64,000 nt of DNA from Phycisphaerae bacterium (GCA_030745875.1 JASLNT010000016.1:62001-126000), one strand, 5' to 3'. Positions 1-59,503 are shown, counted from the stretch's first letter. The notes: a model not told the origin generated them from the sequence alone. Numbers and translations: made by a program.

Positions 1-1260
1 TACAGTCTGAATGCCAGATGCAATATCGAGCATTACTGGCTCCTGAGAAATCGTCCGTGCGATGAAGATGAAACCGGATTGCAGGAATGGAAGGAGCGTG
101 TCGCGAGAGATCATCTTGTACTCCAGGGGGCGAACCTCCAATACGCCAATCTCCAGGGGATAAACCTCCCATCGGCTAATTTGCAGGGGGCAAATCTCTC
201 ATACGCAAACATCCAAGGAGCAGCCCTCCGGGAGGCCGACTTACAGGGGGCAATACTCCAGGGAACCGACCTGCGGGCGACAAACCTCGAGCAAGCCAAT
301 CTCCAGGAGGCAATACTCCATCTCGCCGACCTTCGGGGGACGCAGAATCTCCAGCACGTCAGCTTCCAGAAGGCAAGCCTGTTGGGCGCCAAATTCCAGG
401 AAACAAACCTCTCATATGCTAACTTCAAGGGGGCAGACCTCCGTTTCACCGAGATGCAGGGAGCAAGCCTCTTCTTTGCCGAGCTTCAAGGGGCAAACAT
501 CGAAGAAGCCGACATCCGGGGTGCCGATTTTAGCGACATTATCGTCGATGGAGAGACGTTCATAGGTACTATTAAGGTTGATCGAAAAACTGACTTCTCC
601 GGCGTTGGTCTGAGTAACACTCGCGTTGTGGCTGGTTTGCGGCAACTGCTGGAGTACAACGTCCGTCGAAAGCGCTGGAAAATATGGTATCGGGAGAATC
701 CGCATTTGGCAGCGCCGGTCTGGCTGTTCTGGGCGCTGACAGATTATGGTTTTTCGACATGGCGAATCATACTGTCAATTATCTTCGTGTCATACGGATT
801 TGCGGTAGCCTATCTTATGAATCCGACGTTTCTAGATCTAAATCCTCACATCGGCGAACTCCGTGGCTTCGTACATGCCCTGTACTTTTCGGTGGTGACA
901 ACGACCACATTAGGATTCGGGGATATTCACGCCAGTCCCGACAGCACTGGAGGACAGTTGACGCTGATGGGTCATGTTCTTCTGGGTTACGTTCTCCTCG
1001 GAGCGTTAATCACGCGCTTGGCGGTGGTCTTCTCGAACGATGGTCCGACACGCGGGTTCTATGATGGTAGACCTGATTTCTACGCCGTGACGGGAACACC
1101 TCTCCAACAATGGATGAAGATTCACTGGAGAATACTCCTTTGGAAAATACACCTCAGGCATCGGCAGATTGTGGATACGCTTGGAACACTTTGGGGATGG
1201 GTTCCAAGTTCGCTTCGTCACGCCTGGGATGAATTCGCAGAAAGGATCCGAGGTCAGTAG
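1..1260 (+). CDS. Pentapeptide-repeat protein with C-terminal two-TM ion-channel domain (5' partial)
   Basis: The reading frame is already open at base 1, so the gene probably starts left of the window; the first possible internal start is a TTG at 79. The first half is a run of about two dozen A(N/D)LQxA-type pentapeptides (roughly 110-540), which in known families fold as a right-handed quadrilateral beta-helix. After a linker comes a pore domain with two hydrophobic helices around a re-entrant loop. The loop carries TTTTLGFGD near 894-923, the selectivity-filter pattern of K+ channels (TxGF/YGD), followed by a second membrane helix and a short basic cytoplasmic tail. I infer a membrane cation (K+) channel with a cytoplasmic pentapeptide sensor or scaffold. 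The 3' end converges on the minus-strand gene ending at 1438. Confidence is high for the domains, low for ligand or role. Confidence 0.85.
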   Translation, partial: YSLNARCNIEHYWLLRNRPCDEDETGLQEWKERVARDHLVLQGANLQYANLQGINLPSANLQGANLSYANIQGAALREADLQGAILQGTDLRATNLEQANLQEAILHLADLRGTQNLQHVSFQKASLLGAKFQETNLSYANFKGADLRFTEMQGASLFFAELQGANIEEADIRGADFSDIIVDGETFIGTIKVDRKTDFSGVGLSNTRVVAGLRQLLEYNVRRKRWKIWYRENPHLAAPVWLFWALTDYGFSTWRIILSIIFVSYGFAVAYLMNPTFLDLNPHIGELRGFVHALYFSVVTTTTLGFGDIHASPDSTGGQLTLMGHVLLGYVLLGALITRLAVVFSNDGPTRGFYDGRPDFYAVTGTPLQQWMKIHWRILLWKIHLRHRQIVDTLGTLWGWVPSSLRHAWDEFAERIRGQ

Positions 1261-50311: not shown

Positions 50312-51640
50312 TCAAATTCCTCTACTGTCGATCGGCGGGATGAATTCGACTTCGGTCAGTTCCAATCCCGCCTGTTTGTCCAGGGTATGACACCAGAAGG
50401 TCTTGACATCCAGACCGAACGGATCGCCAGCCAGCCTGCTCTCTATTCTGCGGAGCGAGGGGTCGAGCTGAAAGTCCCGAAACTCCAGAATGACCTCAAA
50501 ATCCCGTCCGCCTTGAAACTCGCCTGCCGGTCGCGTGGTCTGGAAGCGCCCGGCGAACTGACCGCCTGAGTTCGTGACCGTTACGCCGAAGTACACCTTG
50601 TGGGCTGAGGCGACCCGGCCGCGCACGCGGAGACGGGAGCCGGATTGAACTATGACCGGCGGCTTGTCGCCATGGGACAGTCCGAGCCCCACTGTGTAGA
50701 TCGTAGGGCCTTGGGGCGTGGTATATGGAATCGCCCTTAGTCTGGCGTCTCGGGTATCGGTCTTCGGAGACCACTTCCCTTGCGTCGCGCGGGGCCCGAG
50801 GCGCAGTTGACTGGCCCAGCGGTTTACCGAATCCGGGACGGGTACGGGGGAAAGTTTGCGATCGGCGGCGGCGATAACGCGGTGTTTTGCGGGAACGTCG
50901 ACCATGCTTCCGTCGCTGAGGCGTTTGATCCGCACTGTCCCCTCGCTGACGTTCAGGGTTGTCGCCAGCAGTTCGGCGTCAACTTCAAACTGCGTGCCCA
51001 GCACTTCGAGCATCGCCGAGCGAGTGTAGATAAGCATCGGCTTGCCCGCCGGTTGGGGCTTGACGTCGCCCGAGACGCCGCCTTCCTTGAGATGCAGTTT
51101 CTTCTGCCCGTGATCCGAGAAGGTGAGCGTCGCGTTACCGGAGATCGTCACGGTCGAGCGGTCGTTGAACTGCAATTCGAACCACGATCCGGGTTCCATT
51201 CCCTCAATGGTCCCTCCGGACAATTCGGTCCCCACGCTCAGGTCGTGAAACACCCGCCCGCCGTCGCCCGTCCATTGCAGAGATCCGCTCAATCCGGTGA
51301 TCTTGGCGATCTTCCGTTCGGCGCTCGGGCGCATTAAGAGAAAGCTCGCGACCAGGGCGATCGCGACAGCAGCCGCTACCCCCGACATCGCCAACCACCG
51401 TCGCGCTCGACCGCCCACACCAGACAAATCTTCGCACGCTTCGCACTCAATTCCGGTGTCCGACGATAGTTCAGTCAGATCATCGGCGGCGAGCGTTGCG
51501 TGAATGCGGGCCATTTTCAGGTACAGTTTTCGCGTATCGGCGTCGTCCTCAAGCTGCCGGGAGAGTTCGGCGACTTCGTCCGGCTCGGCGATTCCATCGA
51601 GGTGGCGAGCGATCACGGATTGCCAATCGTGCGTATTCAT
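50312..51640 (-). CDS. FecR-type anti-sigma factor with C-terminal beta-sandwich
   Basis: The protein has 442 aa from ATG 51640 (GAGGAG nine bases upstream; ATGA overlap with the sigma gene). The N-terminal 75 residues (HDWQSVIARHLDGIAEPDEVAEL) resemble the cytoplasmic anti-sigma domain of planctomycete FecR regulators. One TM helix lies at about 85-103 (AAAVAIALVASFLLM). A FecR domain (about 110-265) has STVTISGNATLTF and RSAMLEVLGTQFEV, the family signature. From about 300 to 435 a beta-rich domain with RLRVRGRVASAHKVYFGVTV looks like a carbohydrate-binding-like sandwich. I infer that binding of a sugar ligand outside releases the sigma factor inside. Confidence 0.85.
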   Translation of the reverse strand: MNTHDWQSVIARHLDGIAEPDEVAELSRQLEDDADTRKLYLKMARIHATLAADDLTELSSDTGIECEACEDLSGVGGRARRWLAMSGVAAAVAIALVASFLLMRPSAERKIAKITGLSGSLQWTGDGGRVFHDLSVGTELSGGTIEGMEPGSWFELQFNDRSTVTISGNATLTFSDHGQKKLHLKEGGVSGDVKPQPAGKPMLIYTRSAMLEVLGTQFEVDAELLATTLNVSEGTVRIKRLSDGSMVDVPAKHRVIAAADRKLSPVPVPDSVNRWASQLRLGPRATQGKWSPKTDTRDARLRAIPYTTPQGPTIYTVGLGLSHGDKPPVIVQSGSRLRVRGRVASAHKVYFGVTVTNSGGQFAGRFQTTRPAGEFQGGRDFEVILEFRDFQLDPSLRRIESRLAGDPFGLDVKTFWCHTLDKQAGLELTEVEFIPPIDSRGI

Positions 51641-52158
51641 GTTGCCGATCTCCTCATTTTCGATTCGATGCACTTATGCAGGGCGTGCCGAATACGTTGC
51701 AGCATCTTGTAAACAGCGTCCACCGACCGCCCGGTCCGTTGCGATAGTTCGCTGACGGGATACTCGTCGCTGTAGTAACCGCCCAGAAGTTGGCGATGAG
51801 ACTCGGGGAGGGCGTCAACACAGTGTTTCAGGAAGCTCTCTCGCTCGTCGAGTTCCGCAGCGTGCCGCTGTTCGTCTTGAAGCAATAACTCAGCCGCCCG
51901 CACGGTCAATCTGGCGCGCCGCCCGGATTTGCGAAGAAAGCGACGCACCTCCATTCGCACGAACCCCAGAGCCCAGTTAGCGAACGGACGCTCCGGGTCG
52001 TACTCGGAAAAACGGCGCCACAACGCTACAGAACACTCCTGAAGAACATCGCGTGCATCGGCGCGATTCGGTACGGCAACCAGCGCACACCGCAAGAGTT
52101 CGGGCTCGTGCTGAATCAGCAGCCGAGTAAAGCGTTCGTGATTGTCTTTCACTTCCAT
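51637..52158 (-). CDS. ECF sigma factor, planctomycete/Verrucomicrobia (Rhodopirellula-type) group
   Basis: The protein has 173 aa. Region 2 (about 10-75) shows ADARDVLQECSVALWRRF and RPFANWALGFVRMEVRRFLRK, the core-binding and -10-recognition helices. Region 4 (about 110-168) has ALPESHRQLLGGYYSDEYPV and VDAVYKMLQRIRHAL, the helix-turn-helix for -35 contacts. It is a short ECF protein without a C-terminal extension, of the kind paired with FecR/transmembrane anti-sigma proteins in planctomycetes. Its stop overlaps the FecR start by 4 bp. The position in the middle of a catabolic block suggests that it controls genes there, but no target promoter was identified. Confidence 0.9.
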   Translation of the reverse strand: MEVKDNHERFTRLLIQHEPELLRCALVAVPNRADARDVLQECSVALWRRFSEYDPERPFANWALGFVRMEVRRFLRKSGRRARLTVRAAELLLQDEQRHAAELDERESFLKHCVDALPESHRQLLGGYYSDEYPVSELSQRTGRSVDAVYKMLQRIRHALHKCIESKMRRSAT

Positions 52159-55221: not shown

Positions 55222-56169
55222 TTATTTAGGCGTTGCTTCTCCGTGTGGGTATCTGTAGTCGGCACGCGGGTTTGTCGACACTTGCTTCGTGGAACCATCC
55301 TTCAACGTGTACAGGCGGAGCTTTCCGGCCGCGTGGTACACAATCGCCGCCTCGTCCTTCATCCATCGCGGGTAAGCGAACCACTGCTTCTTCTTTTCCA
55401 GGTTTGCAAACGGTTTGACGTTGGTAATGGCGAGCTTCTTGGCGTCGAAATCGGCCAGGAAGAGCGTGCGTCCTGTTGGGTTGTATTTGTGCCCGATCTG
55501 GTGTTCGAAACAGATCTTGTCCTCGCTGGGTGAGATGCTGATGCGGTCGAGAAGCCCTTTCTTCGCGAGCCCGGCGCAGTCTATACGCTGGTAGCGAGGT
55601 GTCCCGCCAATCTTGGGCGTCATTAGGAAGTAGCCCCAGCCCTGCTTCGGGTGGGCCGACTGCACCAGAATTCTACCGTCGACGAGACACGTATAGGCCC
55701 AGTTGTGATAGCGCCGGTCCGTGATGGGGACTTCCTGTCCCGGGCGATTGCCCACCTTGCTCTTCATAACGGTGAAACCGCCGGTCTTCGTGTTCCTCCG
55801 GTTCCAGATCGGAGTGTTCTTTCCGTCGCGCGTCCAGGTCTGGTTGAAATCCGTATGCGTTCCATCGGTCAGCTTGTGAAAGCCCGTACCGTCAACGTTG
55901 ATAATGCATATCGCAGTCTTCCAGTTGGTCACGACAGGATCGTTTTTCAGCCTGCGAAAGAAGACAAGCATGTCGCCGGTTTTCGACCATGATGGTTTAA
56001 AGTCCCAGTGGCCCGATGTCAGCGGTTTTCCTTCAGGCGTTCCAAGCTCGTTTACGTGGATCCGCCCGTTCATGTAATACGAGCTGCGATACTTGGTTTG
56101 TGCTGGTTTCCGGGCGAAGGCCGAACCAACTGCGGCCATGATCAACATAATTGCGATTGTTTTTTTCAT
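55222..56169 (-). CDS. Exported TolB-like beta-propeller protein
   Basis: The protein has 315 aa from ATG 56169, which follows GGGAG by about seven bases; the longer open frame lacks support. A signal peptide (IAIMLIMAAVGSAFA) is followed by repeats of the PD40/WD40-like type: SGHWDFKPSWSKTGDM, CIINVDGTGFHKLTDG, then DFNQTWTRDGKN and WFAYPRWMKDEAAIVYH. These resemble TolB blades and also the oligogalacturonate-lyase (OGL)-like propellers found in uronic-acid loci. No catalytic residues could be assigned, so binding is the safer call. It is the first gene of the minus-strand catabolic block. Confidence 0.8.
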   Translation of the reverse strand: MKKTIAIMLIMAAVGSAFARKPAQTKYRSSYYMNGRIHVNELGTPEGKPLTSGHWDFKPSWSKTGDMLVFFRRLKNDPVVTNWKTAICIINVDGTGFHKLTDGTHTDFNQTWTRDGKNTPIWNRRNTKTGGFTVMKSKVGNRPGQEVPITDRRYHNWAYTCLVDGRILVQSAHPKQGWGYFLMTPKIGGTPRYQRIDCAGLAKKGLLDRISISPSEDKICFEHQIGHKYNPTGRTLFLADFDAKKLAITNVKPFANLEKKKQWFAYPRWMKDEAAIVYHAAGKLRLYTLKDGSTKQVSTNPRADYRYPHGEATPK

Positions 56170-56224
56170 GGCGTGAGCTCCCTTTGAGTGTTGTTTGGCG
56201 ACAGGTTGTTGTATGAAGCGAATG

Positions 56225-56269
56225 GGGGGCGGCGGCAGAGCCGCCGCCCCCGTACGCATTGTGAATGCG
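56225..56269. repeat. Two adjacent perfect hairpins between catabolic block and peptidase gene
   Basis: A 12-bp perfect stem (56225-56236 with 56240-56251, loop AGA), GC only, is followed by a 6-bp perfect stem (56255-56260 with 56264-56269, loop GTG). Neither is followed by a T-run on the minus strand. They could slow transcription leaving the M56 gene or protect the mRNA end. Confidence 0.7.
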
Positions 56270-56294: not shown

Positions 56295-59042
56295 TCAGCG
56301 CTGGTGGCGCCCGGACATCCGATCTTTGATTTCCTTGTATTTTGCGTCGGCTTCTTTGCGGGTCATGTCGCCGCGCTTCACGGCGCCTTCGATCCGCTTT
56401 CTGATGTTCTCCCAATTCACGCGGTCGGGCCTGCGGGGTGCGTCTTTCTCGCCGCCGCGATTACGTTGTCCGGCGGCGATTCTCTCTCTTACGGCTTTCT
56501 CGACTTCGGCGAACCTTTTGCCTGCGTCTTCCCTGCTGATCTTAGCGGCCTCGACGGCGGCTCCGAGTTCTCTTCTGACCTTCATAAGGTGCTCGCGGGC
56601 GGCATGCTCGGGCGCCTGGTGGGGTCTGGCGCGGTCACGGTCGCGTCCGGCGGCGAACCTCTTGGCTGCGTCTTCCCTGCTGATCTTCCCGGCCCTGACG
56701 GCGGCTCCGAGTTCTCCCCTGACCTTCATCAGGTGCTCGCGGACGCGGTTGGGCGTTTGGTCCTTCTGGTCGTGGGAATAGAGTTTCTTCTTTATCTCGT
56801 CCATTTTCTTGCGGGCGTCTTCTTCGGATATCTTCCTGTCCCTGACGGCTTGCTTGAGCTTCTCGCCTGCTTCGGCGAGTTCTATCTGACGCAAAAACTC
56901 CCTGGCTGCCTGTTCGGGTATCTTGCCTTCTTTGACAGCGGCGTGGAGCTTGGGCCCCAGTTGTTTCTCCTTGAATTCTTGCCATTTCGCCCAGGCTTGC
57001 TCGCCGGTGATTTTGTCCGACTCTGCAGCCTTGCGGATTTCATCGCCGACTTTTCCCACCCATTGACCAAACTTTTCGATCGCGGAACCGCCTTCTTTGC
57101 GATGTTCGTTGCGCCGGTCCTTGCGGTGGTCTTTGCCCTTGTCGCGATGTTCGCCGCGCCGCATGTGTTGCTTCTCGATTTCGCTCATTTTGCGGCGGGC
57201 GTCTTCTTCGGATATTTCGCCCCTCTTAACGGCCTGCTCCAGTCGTGTCCGGGCTTCGCCGAGTTCCAACCCGCGCCAGAAACCGATAGCCGCCTGCTCT
57301 GAAATCTCGCCTCCTTTTACAGCGCCTTTGAGCTTCTGCGCCAACGGTCCTTCCTTGAACCCGCGCCACCTTTCCCAGGCTTGTTTTTCGGTGATTTTGC
57401 CTTCCTCGACGGCCTTGTGAAGCTCCTGGCCAACCGAGCCGACCCAGCGGCCGATACCTTCGATAGGCGAGCCGCCTTCTTTGCGATGCTTCTGGGGGCG
57501 GTCCTTGTTTCCGCGCTGGAATTTGGCGTGGACTTGTCTTTTTATTTCGTCCATTTTCCGCTCGGCATCCTCTTTGGACATCTTGCCTTCACGGACCGCA
57601 TGCTGCATGCGTTCCCATATCGCGCGCAGATGAGCGTGGACTTTTTCCTCTTTACCCCTGTCGCCATCAGGGCGATGCTCACGGTTCTTGTGTTTGGCAT
57701 CGATATGCTTCTTGATCTCGCCCATCTTCTTGTGGGCGTCTTCCTGAGACATCTTGCCTTCGCGCACCTCGCGCTGGAGTTTTTCCCAGATTTCCCGCAG
57801 ATGAGCGTCGATCCTCTCGCGATCGGGTCGTCTGTCGCGGTGATCGTCTTCTTTCTCCTTGTACATCGAGCCCTTCAGGGCTCCCATCATTATGTGGGCC
57901 TGCTGCCTGGATATCTCGCCTTTGTCCACCGAAGTCTGCAGACGCTTCCAAACCGCGTCGAGATCCTGTGCGGATGCAACGCCAAGCGGAAGTACGATCA
58001 TCGCGCAAAGCAGTACGCATGTCTGCAACCAACGTGATTTAGATTTGTTCGAGTTGCCTGATACGATCATCTTGAATCTCCTTTCGAGGAATCCGCCGCT
58101 GTTAACTTCGCTTGCCATCGCCGGTGGGCGGACCGCCGGACGTACAAGAGATTCCACTGCCGTCAAAATCGATTTTGCATAAGAGTGAGGTTTCGGATTC
58201 AGCGACGATATGACCAGTGCGTCGCAGCATATCTCTTCGGTTGCGCGAAGGTTGCGCTGCGCCCACCAGACCACGGGGTTCCACCAGAATCCCACGCACG
58301 CCAACCATTCGAGCCAGCGAACCAGGTAGTCGCGCCGCTTTACGTGCGCCAGTTCATGCGCCAGAACCCACTTCAACTGCCTGGTTTCCAGTCGATCGAG
58401 TATGGTGATCGGGATGATTACCCGCACTTTTCCGCCAGTCCACCAGACCATAGGCGAAATGCGGGCCGACGTCGTGCAAATCGTTGGGAGCGTCTTCAGT
58501 TTCAATCGGCGAGCGATTCGCAGCGCTGAGGTCTGAAGTTGTTCCGGAGCGGGTTGAGCTTCGGCCGTCAGCAGGCGGCTGAAGCGAGAGACACGGACCA
58601 GCGACCAAACCAGAACAATCGCGCTTCCCAGCAACCAGATCGGAGGCGCCCATTGCCTGAGATGATCCAACACGGCCGACCGTTCGGCGACGGTGGGCGC
58701 AACGTTCTCCGCCGTAGAGGCGTTCGGTTGTGAAATGGCGAGTACATTAGCGCCGGATGCGGGGATCGACGGTGAAACGCCGGTCCGGCGATTACCGGCG
58801 AAATGACCGTGCGTTTGCAGATGCTCTTCGGCGCCGACCGCGGTTTCGGTTTGTCCGGACATCGCAACGCCGGGGATCGTCACAAGAGGGGGGGTGACTA
58901 ACTTCACCAGAACGAGCAACCACAGCAAGTTCGCCAAGTGCGGGCGTTTGGTTGTCTTTCCGACCACCAGCGCCACAATCGCCAAGGCCAGCGCAAAGCA
59001 GGCGTTGCTGAGCCCGATTTTCAGGAGGAGATCAGTCATCAT
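56295..59042 (-). CDS. M56 (BlaR1/MecR1-type) peptidase with long C-terminal helical-repeat region
   Basis: The protein has 915 aa. The N-terminal part has several TM helices, and the zinc site LAHELAHVKRRDY (HELAH about 229-233) is followed by GFWWNPVVWW and a downstream Glu in RATEEICCDAL. This is the BlaR1/MecR1 metalloprotease pattern. In place of a penicillin-binding domain, a further TM or signal-like helix (about 338-358, VLLCAMIVLPLGVASAQ) leads to about 550 charged residues made of repeated short helical hairpins, probably outside the cytoplasm. By analogy the protease cleaves the BlaI-type repressor encoded just upstream (ATGA overlap) when the outer region senses a signal, but the ligand is unknown. 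Confidence 0.88.
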   Translation of the reverse strand: MMTDLLLKIGLSNACFALALAIVALVVGKTTKRPHLANLLWLLVLVKLVTPPLVTIPGVAMSGQTETAVGAEEHLQTHGHFAGNRRTGVSPSIPASGANVLAISQPNASTAENVAPTVAERSAVLDHLRQWAPPIWLLGSAIVLVWSLVRVSRFSRLLTAEAQPAPEQLQTSALRIARRLKLKTLPTICTTSARISPMVWWTGGKVRVIIPITILDRLETRQLKWVLAHELAHVKRRDYLVRWLEWLACVGFWWNPVVWWAQRNLRATEEICCDALVISSLNPKPHSYAKSILTAVESLVRPAVRPPAMASEVNSGGFLERRFKMIVSGNSNKSKSRWLQTCVLLCAMIVLPLGVASAQDLDAVWKRLQTSVDKGEISRQQAHIMMGALKGSMYKEKEDDHRDRRPDRERIDAHLREIWEKLQREVREGKMSQEDAHKKMGEIKKHIDAKHKNREHRPDGDRGKEEKVHAHLRAIWERMQHAVREGKMSKEDAERKMDEIKRQVHAKFQRGNKDRPQKHRKEGGSPIEGIGRWVGSVGQELHKAVEEGKITEKQAWERWRGFKEGPLAQKLKGAVKGGEISEQAAIGFWRGLELGEARTRLEQAVKRGEISEEDARRKMSEIEKQHMRRGEHRDKGKDHRKDRRNEHRKEGGSAIEKFGQWVGKVGDEIRKAAESDKITGEQAWAKWQEFKEKQLGPKLHAAVKEGKIPEQAAREFLRQIELAEAGEKLKQAVRDRKISEEDARKKMDEIKKKLYSHDQKDQTPNRVREHLMKVRGELGAAVRAGKISREDAAKRFAAGRDRDRARPHQAPEHAAREHLMKVRRELGAAVEAAKISREDAGKRFAEVEKAVRERIAAGQRNRGGEKDAPRRPDRVNWENIRKRIEGAVKRGDMTRKEADAKYKEIKDRMSGRHQR
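56310..57965 (-). repeat. About twelve tandem SHOCT-like repeats encoded in the M56 peptidase
   Basis: Each repeat of about 30 residues follows the pattern L-x-x-A-V-x-x-G-K-I-(S/T)-x-E-x-A, then a KM-x-E-I-K type helix. Examples are LQREVREGKMSQEDAHKKM, LHKAVEEGKITEKQAWERW, LEQAVKRGEISEEDARRKM and IEGAVKRGDMTRKEADAKY. The pattern resembles the SHOCT motif (helix, G-x-I-T/S turn, EEF/EDA helix). Units 4-6 and 7-9 form two copies of a larger module. Confidence 0.75.
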
Positions 59043-59425
59043 TCCACACCCTGGCTTTCGTGTTGATTGAGGATCGCCCGGATACGGTCAATTTCGTCGC
59101 GGGAGATCTTCTTCTTCTCGACCAGATGCGTAATGAGCGGCGCGAACGATCCGGCGGTCAGCGTGTCGGCGAGCGATTCGAGCTGCTCGCCTGCATAGGT
59201 CTGACGCGATATTGTCGCCGAGAACAGATGGACCGACAAGCTGCGGTCACGCTGGACGTATCCTTTGTCCTCCAGACGCTGCAGCAGTTTCTGGACGGTT
59301 CCATGTTGCGCCCCGGTCGCGTCAGAGTAAAGTTGATCGCGTATCTGACGGGCGGTCAACTGATCTTCCTGCCAGAGGAGGTTCATTACTCCGAGTTCCG
59401 CGTTAGCCAGCGCTGGTTGCTTCAT
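59039..59425 (-). CDS. BlaI/MecI-family transcriptional repressor
   Basis: The protein has 128 aa. A winged helix (LANAELGVMNLLWQEDQLTA, then HGTVQKLLQRLEDKGYVQRD) precedes a C-terminal helical dimerisation domain with FAPLITHLVEKKKISRDEID. Members bind dyads upstream of their own operon and are inactivated by proteolysis through a BlaR1-type partner, which is the next gene (4-bp overlap). The two operators at 59459-59494 fit autoregulation. The usual BlaI sites contain TACA/TGTA cores, whereas here the half-sites are ACGACA/TGTCGT, so the recognition helix probably has adapted specificity. Confidence 0.92.
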   Translation of the reverse strand: MKQPALANAELGVMNLLWQEDQLTARQIRDQLYSDATGAQHGTVQKLLQRLEDKGYVQRDRSLSVHLFSATISRQTYAGEQLESLADTLTAGSFAPLITHLVEKKKISRDEIDRIRAILNQHESQGVE

Positions 59426-59458
59426 TATTGATGATCCTTATTATGCTCTGACGGACGC

Positions 59459-59494
59459 ACGACAACATGTCGTAAGTGTACGACAACATGTCGT
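59459..59494. promoter_or_regulatory. Two operators for the BlaI-type repressor
   Basis: The 15-bp sequence ACGACAACATGTCGT occurs at 59459-59473 and again, identically, at 59480-59494. Arms ACGACA and TGTCGT are perfect inverted repeats around a 3-nt centre. Centre-to-centre distance is 21 bp, two helical turns, so two repressor dimers would bind the same face. One covers the predicted start, the other the spacer. Confidence 0.85.
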
Positions 59495-59503
59495 CGATAT
59501 CAA
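59475..59503 (-). promoter_or_regulatory. Predicted promoter of the BlaI/M56 operon
   Basis: On the minus strand TTGATA (59498-59503), a 17-bp spacer and TACACT (59475-59480). A start near 59468 would give a leader of about 43 nt with AAGGA before ATG 59425. One operator lies in the spacer and the other around the start, as expected for repression. Confidence 0.6.

Follow-up and report, generated by a model that had tools for sequence, protein, structure and literature searches.

To our knowledge, BlaR1-type systems have been known almost solely as antibiotic sensors. The BlaR1/BlaI and MecR1/MecI systems of staphylococci and bacilli (family M56) combine a BlaI-type winged-helix repressor with a membrane M56 zinc protease that carries a C-terminal exported sensor, the two being encoded in a two-gene operon (for a review of BlaR1 signalling, see PMC7593790). 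Here we describe an operon with this layout in a 64,000-nucleotide stretch of DNA from a Phycisphaerae bacterium (GCA_030745875.1, JASLNT010000016.1:62001-126000; hereafter, the window). In contrast to the BlaR1 and MecR1 systems, it lacks both a penicillin-binding sensor and a partner gene for a beta-lactamase; the place of the class-D beta-lactamase-like C-terminal sensor is occupied by an array of helical hairpins. This variant of BlaR-type signalling is new, and the array is well supported. In addition, sequence conservation strongly suggests a second translation start within the protease gene, immediately before the array and its membrane helix (Table 1).

The repressor and protease genes are joined by an ATGA overlap, and both products match their Pfam families, which bears out an earlier sequence-only reading of this DNA that had proposed a translationally coupled pair. 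The winged-helix penicillinase-repressor domain (Penicillinase_R, PF03965) is present in the repressor at full length (residues 7-121, above the family cut-off). In the protease (Peptidase_M56, PF05569), hydropathy places hydrophobic helices at residues 9-27, 39-57, and 131-152, with a fourth, TM4, at about 337-357. The HExxH motif is accompanied by the downstream Glu ligand and the membrane helices of the M56/BlaR1 family, and H229, E230, A232, H233, E269/E270, and D274 are invariant among 23 orthologs. A Foldseek search with the full predicted model returns mainly BlaR1 and related metalloproteases, the best matches being the BlaR1 cryo-electron microscopy structures 8exq, 8exs, 8exp, and 8exr; the M56 part is accordingly modelled with the BlaR1 fold. 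With the beta-lactam sensor models NF000326 and NF033108, the protein reaches 84 bits, where the cut-off is 400, and the match stops before the sensor. Because KSKSR precedes TM4 and a signal-peptidase-like site follows it, the array is predicted to face outward and not into the cytoplasm. Hydropathy, profiles, and these flanks thus agree with the earlier proposal that the peptidase continues through a membrane helix into an outward array instead of a beta-lactam-binding domain.

The tail after TM4 comprises 557 residues, 38% of which are K, R, or E, and searches of Pfam and NCBIfam find no domain in the array. A hairpin hidden Markov model (HMM) built from the family, with the unit consensus i..kL.aAVeaGkiTeEeA.aKl.aikkr, identifies exactly 12 units in the window protein, each scoring 20-38 bits, with low E-values throughout. 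Above 10 bits, this model has 142 matches in real tails and none in composition-shuffled tails. Units 4-6 and 7-9 form a duplicated triple (57% identity across 99 amino acids). AlphaFold2 predicts a helix-turn-helix in every unit, mostly with a predicted local distance difference test (pLDDT) score of 80-95, so that the estimate of about 550 residues and roughly twelve hairpins stands, and the tail is not the disordered stretch that would have spoken against it. For an acidic ortholog (L067), AlphaFold2 also gives helical hairpins, at lower confidence, and a Foldseek search with this acidic array model returned no significant match. Another ortholog (L064 2493-5225(+)) has an array with Cys-rich linkers (ACPKGCxKPCC repeats) and long poly-Asp runs at its end.

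The sequence-only reading had called these hairpins SHOCT-like. SHOCT and SHOCT-like domains (PF09851, PF08044, PF22746) are likewise helical hairpins of ~29 residues with a G-x-[IM]-[ST]-x-E-x-A turn, and the description holds for the form of the unit. As to kinship, the profile searches go no further than a resemblance: At E<=10, the SHOCT models find nothing in the window array, and at 1e-3 its whole genome has no match. Among homologous tails, 16 out of 23 match SHOCT-like models and four out of 23 match SHOCT, but these matches are sums of weak repeats, and the same tails also match several unrelated hairpin families, among them DUF2680, Phage_XkdX, and GvpG. Proteins with multiple SHOCT copies are known, including one from Naegleria with eight (PMC3581485); the relevant passages of that paper name no M56 partner, whereas the arrays described here are exported and fused to M56.

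Just before TM4, the codons for L-E-R-R-x-x-M spell a Shine-Dalgarno (SD) sequence and an in-frame ATG (in the window, GAA AGG AGA TTC AAG ATG). R321 is encoded by AGG in 17 out of 20 genes (2.7 expected) and R322 by AGA or AGG in 22 out of 23 (6.2 expected); these two columns rank first and second in codon bias among 113 conserved degenerate columns, and the remaining conserved Arg columns are mostly CGN. AGGAG is found 5′ of the ATG in 16 out of 23 genes, against 0.78 expected from each gene's codon usage at synonymous positions and a maximum of six over 2000 synonymous recodings. In a set freed of close copies and enlarged by new genes, 22 out of 28 array genes have GGAG or GAGG at this position (2.0 expected; maximum of seven over 1000 recodings), as do 18 out of 29 non-array M56 genes with the Met motif (2.2 expected), whereas other internal ATGs of these genes, used as a control, have it in 21 out of 526 cases. 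AGGAG persists even where the residue before the Arg pair has changed from E to V, L, or R. Homologs without an ATG at the M325 position have AGGAG in one of 51 cases. The RNA around the M325 ATG is less structured than that of synonymous recodings (mean z of +1.54 vs. -0.07; nominal P = 2.8e-10), and the 16S rRNA of the same genome contains the CCTCC anti-SD sequence. Read from M325, TM4 has the features of a signal-peptidase-I substrate, with a basic n-region, a hydrophobic core, and a small-x-small motif (MIVSGNSNKSKSRWLQTCVLLCAMIVLPLGVASA followed by QD), and most orthologs show the pattern LPLGxAxA followed by (Q/H)D at the end of TM4.

Two intact array genes without a peptidase, G003:C123 (P0005) and G000:C118 (P0006), both in draft assemblies of many contigs, begin at this same SD-ATG. 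Short scraps of the M56 end lie upstream of them (ASEITSGGFLERRLKM and SEIRSAESLERRFRM), and in G003 the M56 frame 5′ of the array is broken. These orphans appear to be natural cases of an array made from the equivalent of the M325 start. A class search of 298 genomes for further orphan arrays gave mainly EF-hand proteins that share the N-terminal part of P0006, together with two M56 genes of another lineage that have nine and six hairpins and no SD-ATG. In P0006, the hairpin array is joined to an N-terminal EF-hand-like domain that a family of secreted planctomycete proteins has in common (L034 4424-5770(+); G000:C117, C120, and C128).

Two perfect ACGACATGTTGTCGT boxes lie over the -35 and -10 elements of the operon's own promoter; they are predicted sites and conform to the palindromic operators at the own promoter that are expected of a PF03965 repressor. 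The same pair overlies a TTGACA/TATAAT-type promoter 5′ of blaI across Planctomycetota, Pyrinomonadaceae, and Longimicrobiales, in almost every orthologous locus whose upstream sequence is long enough, and is reduced to a degenerate form in L080. In a search of 60 related genomes with up to three mismatches permitted, the tandem site occurs in three (G000, G002, and G045), once in each and always at the BlaI-M56 operon; these are the only genomes of the 60 with a BlaI-M56-array operon. Single boxes elsewhere, of which G000 has two and G002 one with none in common, were dropped as candidates for further targets. Autoregulation of the operon by BlaI, acting at the two ACGACA-N3-TGTCGT boxes over its core promoter, is probable. 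Since the tandem site is found only at the operon, and since no conserved third gene or neighbor that could form a regulon was found at the orthologous loci, the system seems mainly to control itself. The operators at the operon's own promoter, the internal ribosome-binding site, and the orphan free arrays had not been noted in the sequence-only reading.

We therefore lean, with some reserve, toward a self-contained, autoregulated BlaI/M56 operon whose exported hairpin-array sensor would be made in both a tethered and a free form. In the resting state, BlaI would keep the operon off. Ribosomes would initiate not only at the start of the protease gene but also at M325, and in the second protein of 591 amino acids TM4 would act as a cleavable signal peptide, releasing the array into the periplasm. 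A signal sensed by the tethered array would activate the protease, and the resulting cleavage of BlaI would raise the amounts of both tethered and free array. Because no target other than the operon is conserved, the free array would probably be an effector and/or a feedback brake that soaks up ligand or binds the tethered array. More tentatively, and with the balance slightly against it, the same may apply to a broad planctomycete M56 group with a conserved internal start, comprising proteins with arrays and with other sensors, in which the free exported sensor and its tethered copy would form a sensor/feedback pair from one gene.

Several points weigh against this account. Translation from M325 is deduced from sequence, and both cleavage by signal peptidase and a part in feedback are proposals. 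The site is not universal, as SD is lacking in L169, L171, L178, L179, and L188; in a second sample of 10 nonduplicate orthologs, drawn after the internal-start hypothesis was made, one gene has AGGAG, four have GGAG, and five have neither. The genes share ancestry, so that nominal P-values overstate the case, and the single operator boxes in G000 and G002 leave room for a small additional regulon. Finally, instead of starting translation, an SD-like sequence ahead of a membrane helix may slow the ribosome. If so, only the full-length M56-array protein would be made, the pause would serve insertion of TM4, and the array would be a long tethered sensor or stalk through which an envelope signal passes to the protease and leads to BlaI cleavage. 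The orthologs without SD agree with such a single product, as do the BlaR1-type architecture and fold. However, pausing would not require an ATG, whereas the ATG is invariant in the 23 genes of the first sample, and SD is absent where the ATG is absent. The unstructured RNA and the orphan arrays that start at the ATG are better suited to initiation, and the AxA motif after TM4 would be left without a role. We consider a single product rather unlikely, although it fares best among the alternatives to a tethered and a free array.

The array could also sense metals or other cations, with ions bound by the linkers between hairpins and the free array serving as a periplasmic metal sponge. Linkers rich in His occur in the window array, linkers rich in Asp and Met in L067, and Cys-rich linkers together with a poly-Asp tail in L064; an EF-hand-like DKDGNG motif is present in orphan P0006; the window BlaI scores 62.8 bits against the CopY/TcrY copper-repressor model, under that model's cut-off; and permease-like genes are close to L059 and L067. 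Yet the arrays share no conserved type of linker, and metal genes are not found as conserved neighbors, which makes this explanation improbable. The polyanion-binding or mechanical surface sensor suggested by the sequence-only reading has very little left in its favor: The window array is long and basic (tail net charge +40), but net charge among orthologous tails extends from -71 (L067) to +48 (L058) and hairpin number from one to 12. On the basis of charge, polyanion binding was rejected as a family trait, and, with array charge not conserved, a fixed polyanion ligand is unlikely.

When 84,980 species genomes were scanned using the M56 part as query, array-bearing orthologs were found in three phyla, Planctomycetota (Phycisphaerae, Sedimentisphaerales, and others), Acidobacteria (Pyrinomonadaceae: L070, L072, and L073), and Gemmatimonadota (Longimicrobiales: L078). 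Homologs with variable repeat numbers, which the earlier reading had proposed to count, are thus present; a genome of the same genus has nine hairpins. Units are more alike within proteins than between them (mean similarity, 0.41 and 0.33, respectively; 0.68 within L059), and arrays therefore grow by duplication. Closely related Gemmatimonadota M56 proteins have quite different C-terminal domains, indicating that the sensor part is exchangeable. The same hairpins occur, without an SD-ATG, in a distant second M56 lineage (nine in L146, G130:C35, and six in L151, G272:C41), so arrays have either joined M56 repeatedly or been exchanged. An extra helical module that L151 has in common with L071, L075, and L076 suggests exchange of sensor parts between M56 lineages.

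Two further groups of M56 relatives were noted. Among Gemmatimonadota proteins (L081-L094), many have an apparent beta-propeller replacing the array; the genes of this group have ACG or GCT instead of the ATG, and SD is absent. In a group from Phycisphaerae and other Planctomycetota with the motif ARR[IL]xM (L101-L110), an internal AGGAG-ATG is present in all genes examined; the exported tail consists of a repeated SYKL-GKL-ALTELM-RDDVP domain and a coiled coil, and a Cys after TM4 resembles a lipoprotein site. A second BlaI-M56 pair lies in the same genome (G000:C89, L038 6703-11700(+)). Its M56 protein has 1665 amino acids, with leucine-rich-repeat-like sequence in the tail, and lacks the Arg-Arg-x-x-Met motif at the corresponding place. 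The PD40-like gene downstream of the operon is perhaps co-transcribed with it and is not kept as a partner among orthologous loci. Apart from the BlaI-M56 system, the window contains a putative extracytoplasmic function (ECF)-type sigma factor gene (51637-52158) followed by a gene for a 453-amino-acid protein (together 50312-52158(-)).

Table 1. Features of the BlaI-M56 locus, in window coordinates
Feature	Position	Strand	Details
BlaI/MecI-type repressor	59039..59425	-	128 aa; PF03965, 5.7e-26; 60-87% identity among orthologous operons
M56 (BlaR1-type) membrane metalloprotease with C-terminal hairpin array	56295..59042	-	915 aa; PF05569, 5.1e-29; Foldseek BlaR1 matches
Putative -35 (TTGATA) of operon promoter	59498..59503	-	TTGACA at equivalent place in orthologs, just 5′ of operator box 1
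Putative -10 (TACACT)	59475..59480	-	17 bp past -35, between the operator boxes; TATAAT in, e.g., L059 and L065
Predicted operator box 1, ACGACATGTTGTCGT	59480..59494	-	ACGACA-N3-TGTCGT palindrome
Predicted operator box 2, ACGACATGTTGTCGT	59459..59473	-	21 bp from box 1
HELAH zinc motif, residues 229-233	58344..58358	-	H229, E230, A232, and H233 invariant in 23 orthologs
Internal Shine-Dalgarno AGGAG in codons R321-R322 (AGG AGA)	58078..58082	-	Codon bias, recoding tests
In-frame internal ATG (M325)	58068..58070	-	Predicted start of second product, 591 aa; ATG in 23/23
TM4, about residues 337-357	57972..58034	-	Hydropathy; helix in AlphaFold2 model; would be signal peptide of internal product
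A356-S357-A358, signal-peptidase-I-like site before Q359 (LPLGVASA, then QD)	57969..57977	-	Pattern common to most orthologs
Array, residues 359-915	56298..57968	-	Repeat HMM, duplication, AlphaFold2 model
Hairpins 1-6, residues 364-392, 418-446, 475-503, 537-564, 567-594, 597-625			Repeat HMM
Hairpins 7-12, residues 665-693, 695-723, 725-753, 774-802, 822-850, 880-908			Repeat HMM
Secreted 345-aa protein, weak WD40-like propeller (PD40) match	55222..56259	-	36 nt downstream of M56 gene

The operon thus belongs to a BlaR1-type branch, spread over three phyla, that has a repeat array as its sensor and seemingly controls little but itself. Compared with BlaR1 and MecR1, it differs further in having ACGACA-N3-TGTCGT operators at its own promoter only and a conserved putative internal start before TM4; a search of the literature collection at hand found no paper linking BlaR1 with internal translation. 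If the internal start is used, one gene would provide both a membrane receptor and its own free soluble sensor domain, an unusual route to feedback within one-component signalling. CpxP, Spy, and ZraP are periplasmic proteins of helical-hairpin form that are induced and exported, and some of them exert feedback on the envelope sensor of their own system. By analogy, the free array would feed back on the tethered sensor as these proteins do on sensor kinases; the likeness is one without a demonstrated sequence match, and here the tethered and free forms would come from one gene and the output would be a protease and repressor. A precedent for the proposed dual product is SctQ/HrcQ of type III secretion, in which one gene gives two in-frame products and the separately translated C-terminal product binds the full-length protein (PMC8553256). 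There, a full-length protein is accompanied by a partner from an internal start, which in our case is predicted from sequence; SctQ/HrcQ, however, is a cytoplasmic structural protein, whereas the second product of the M56 gene would carry a signal peptide at its start and undergo export.
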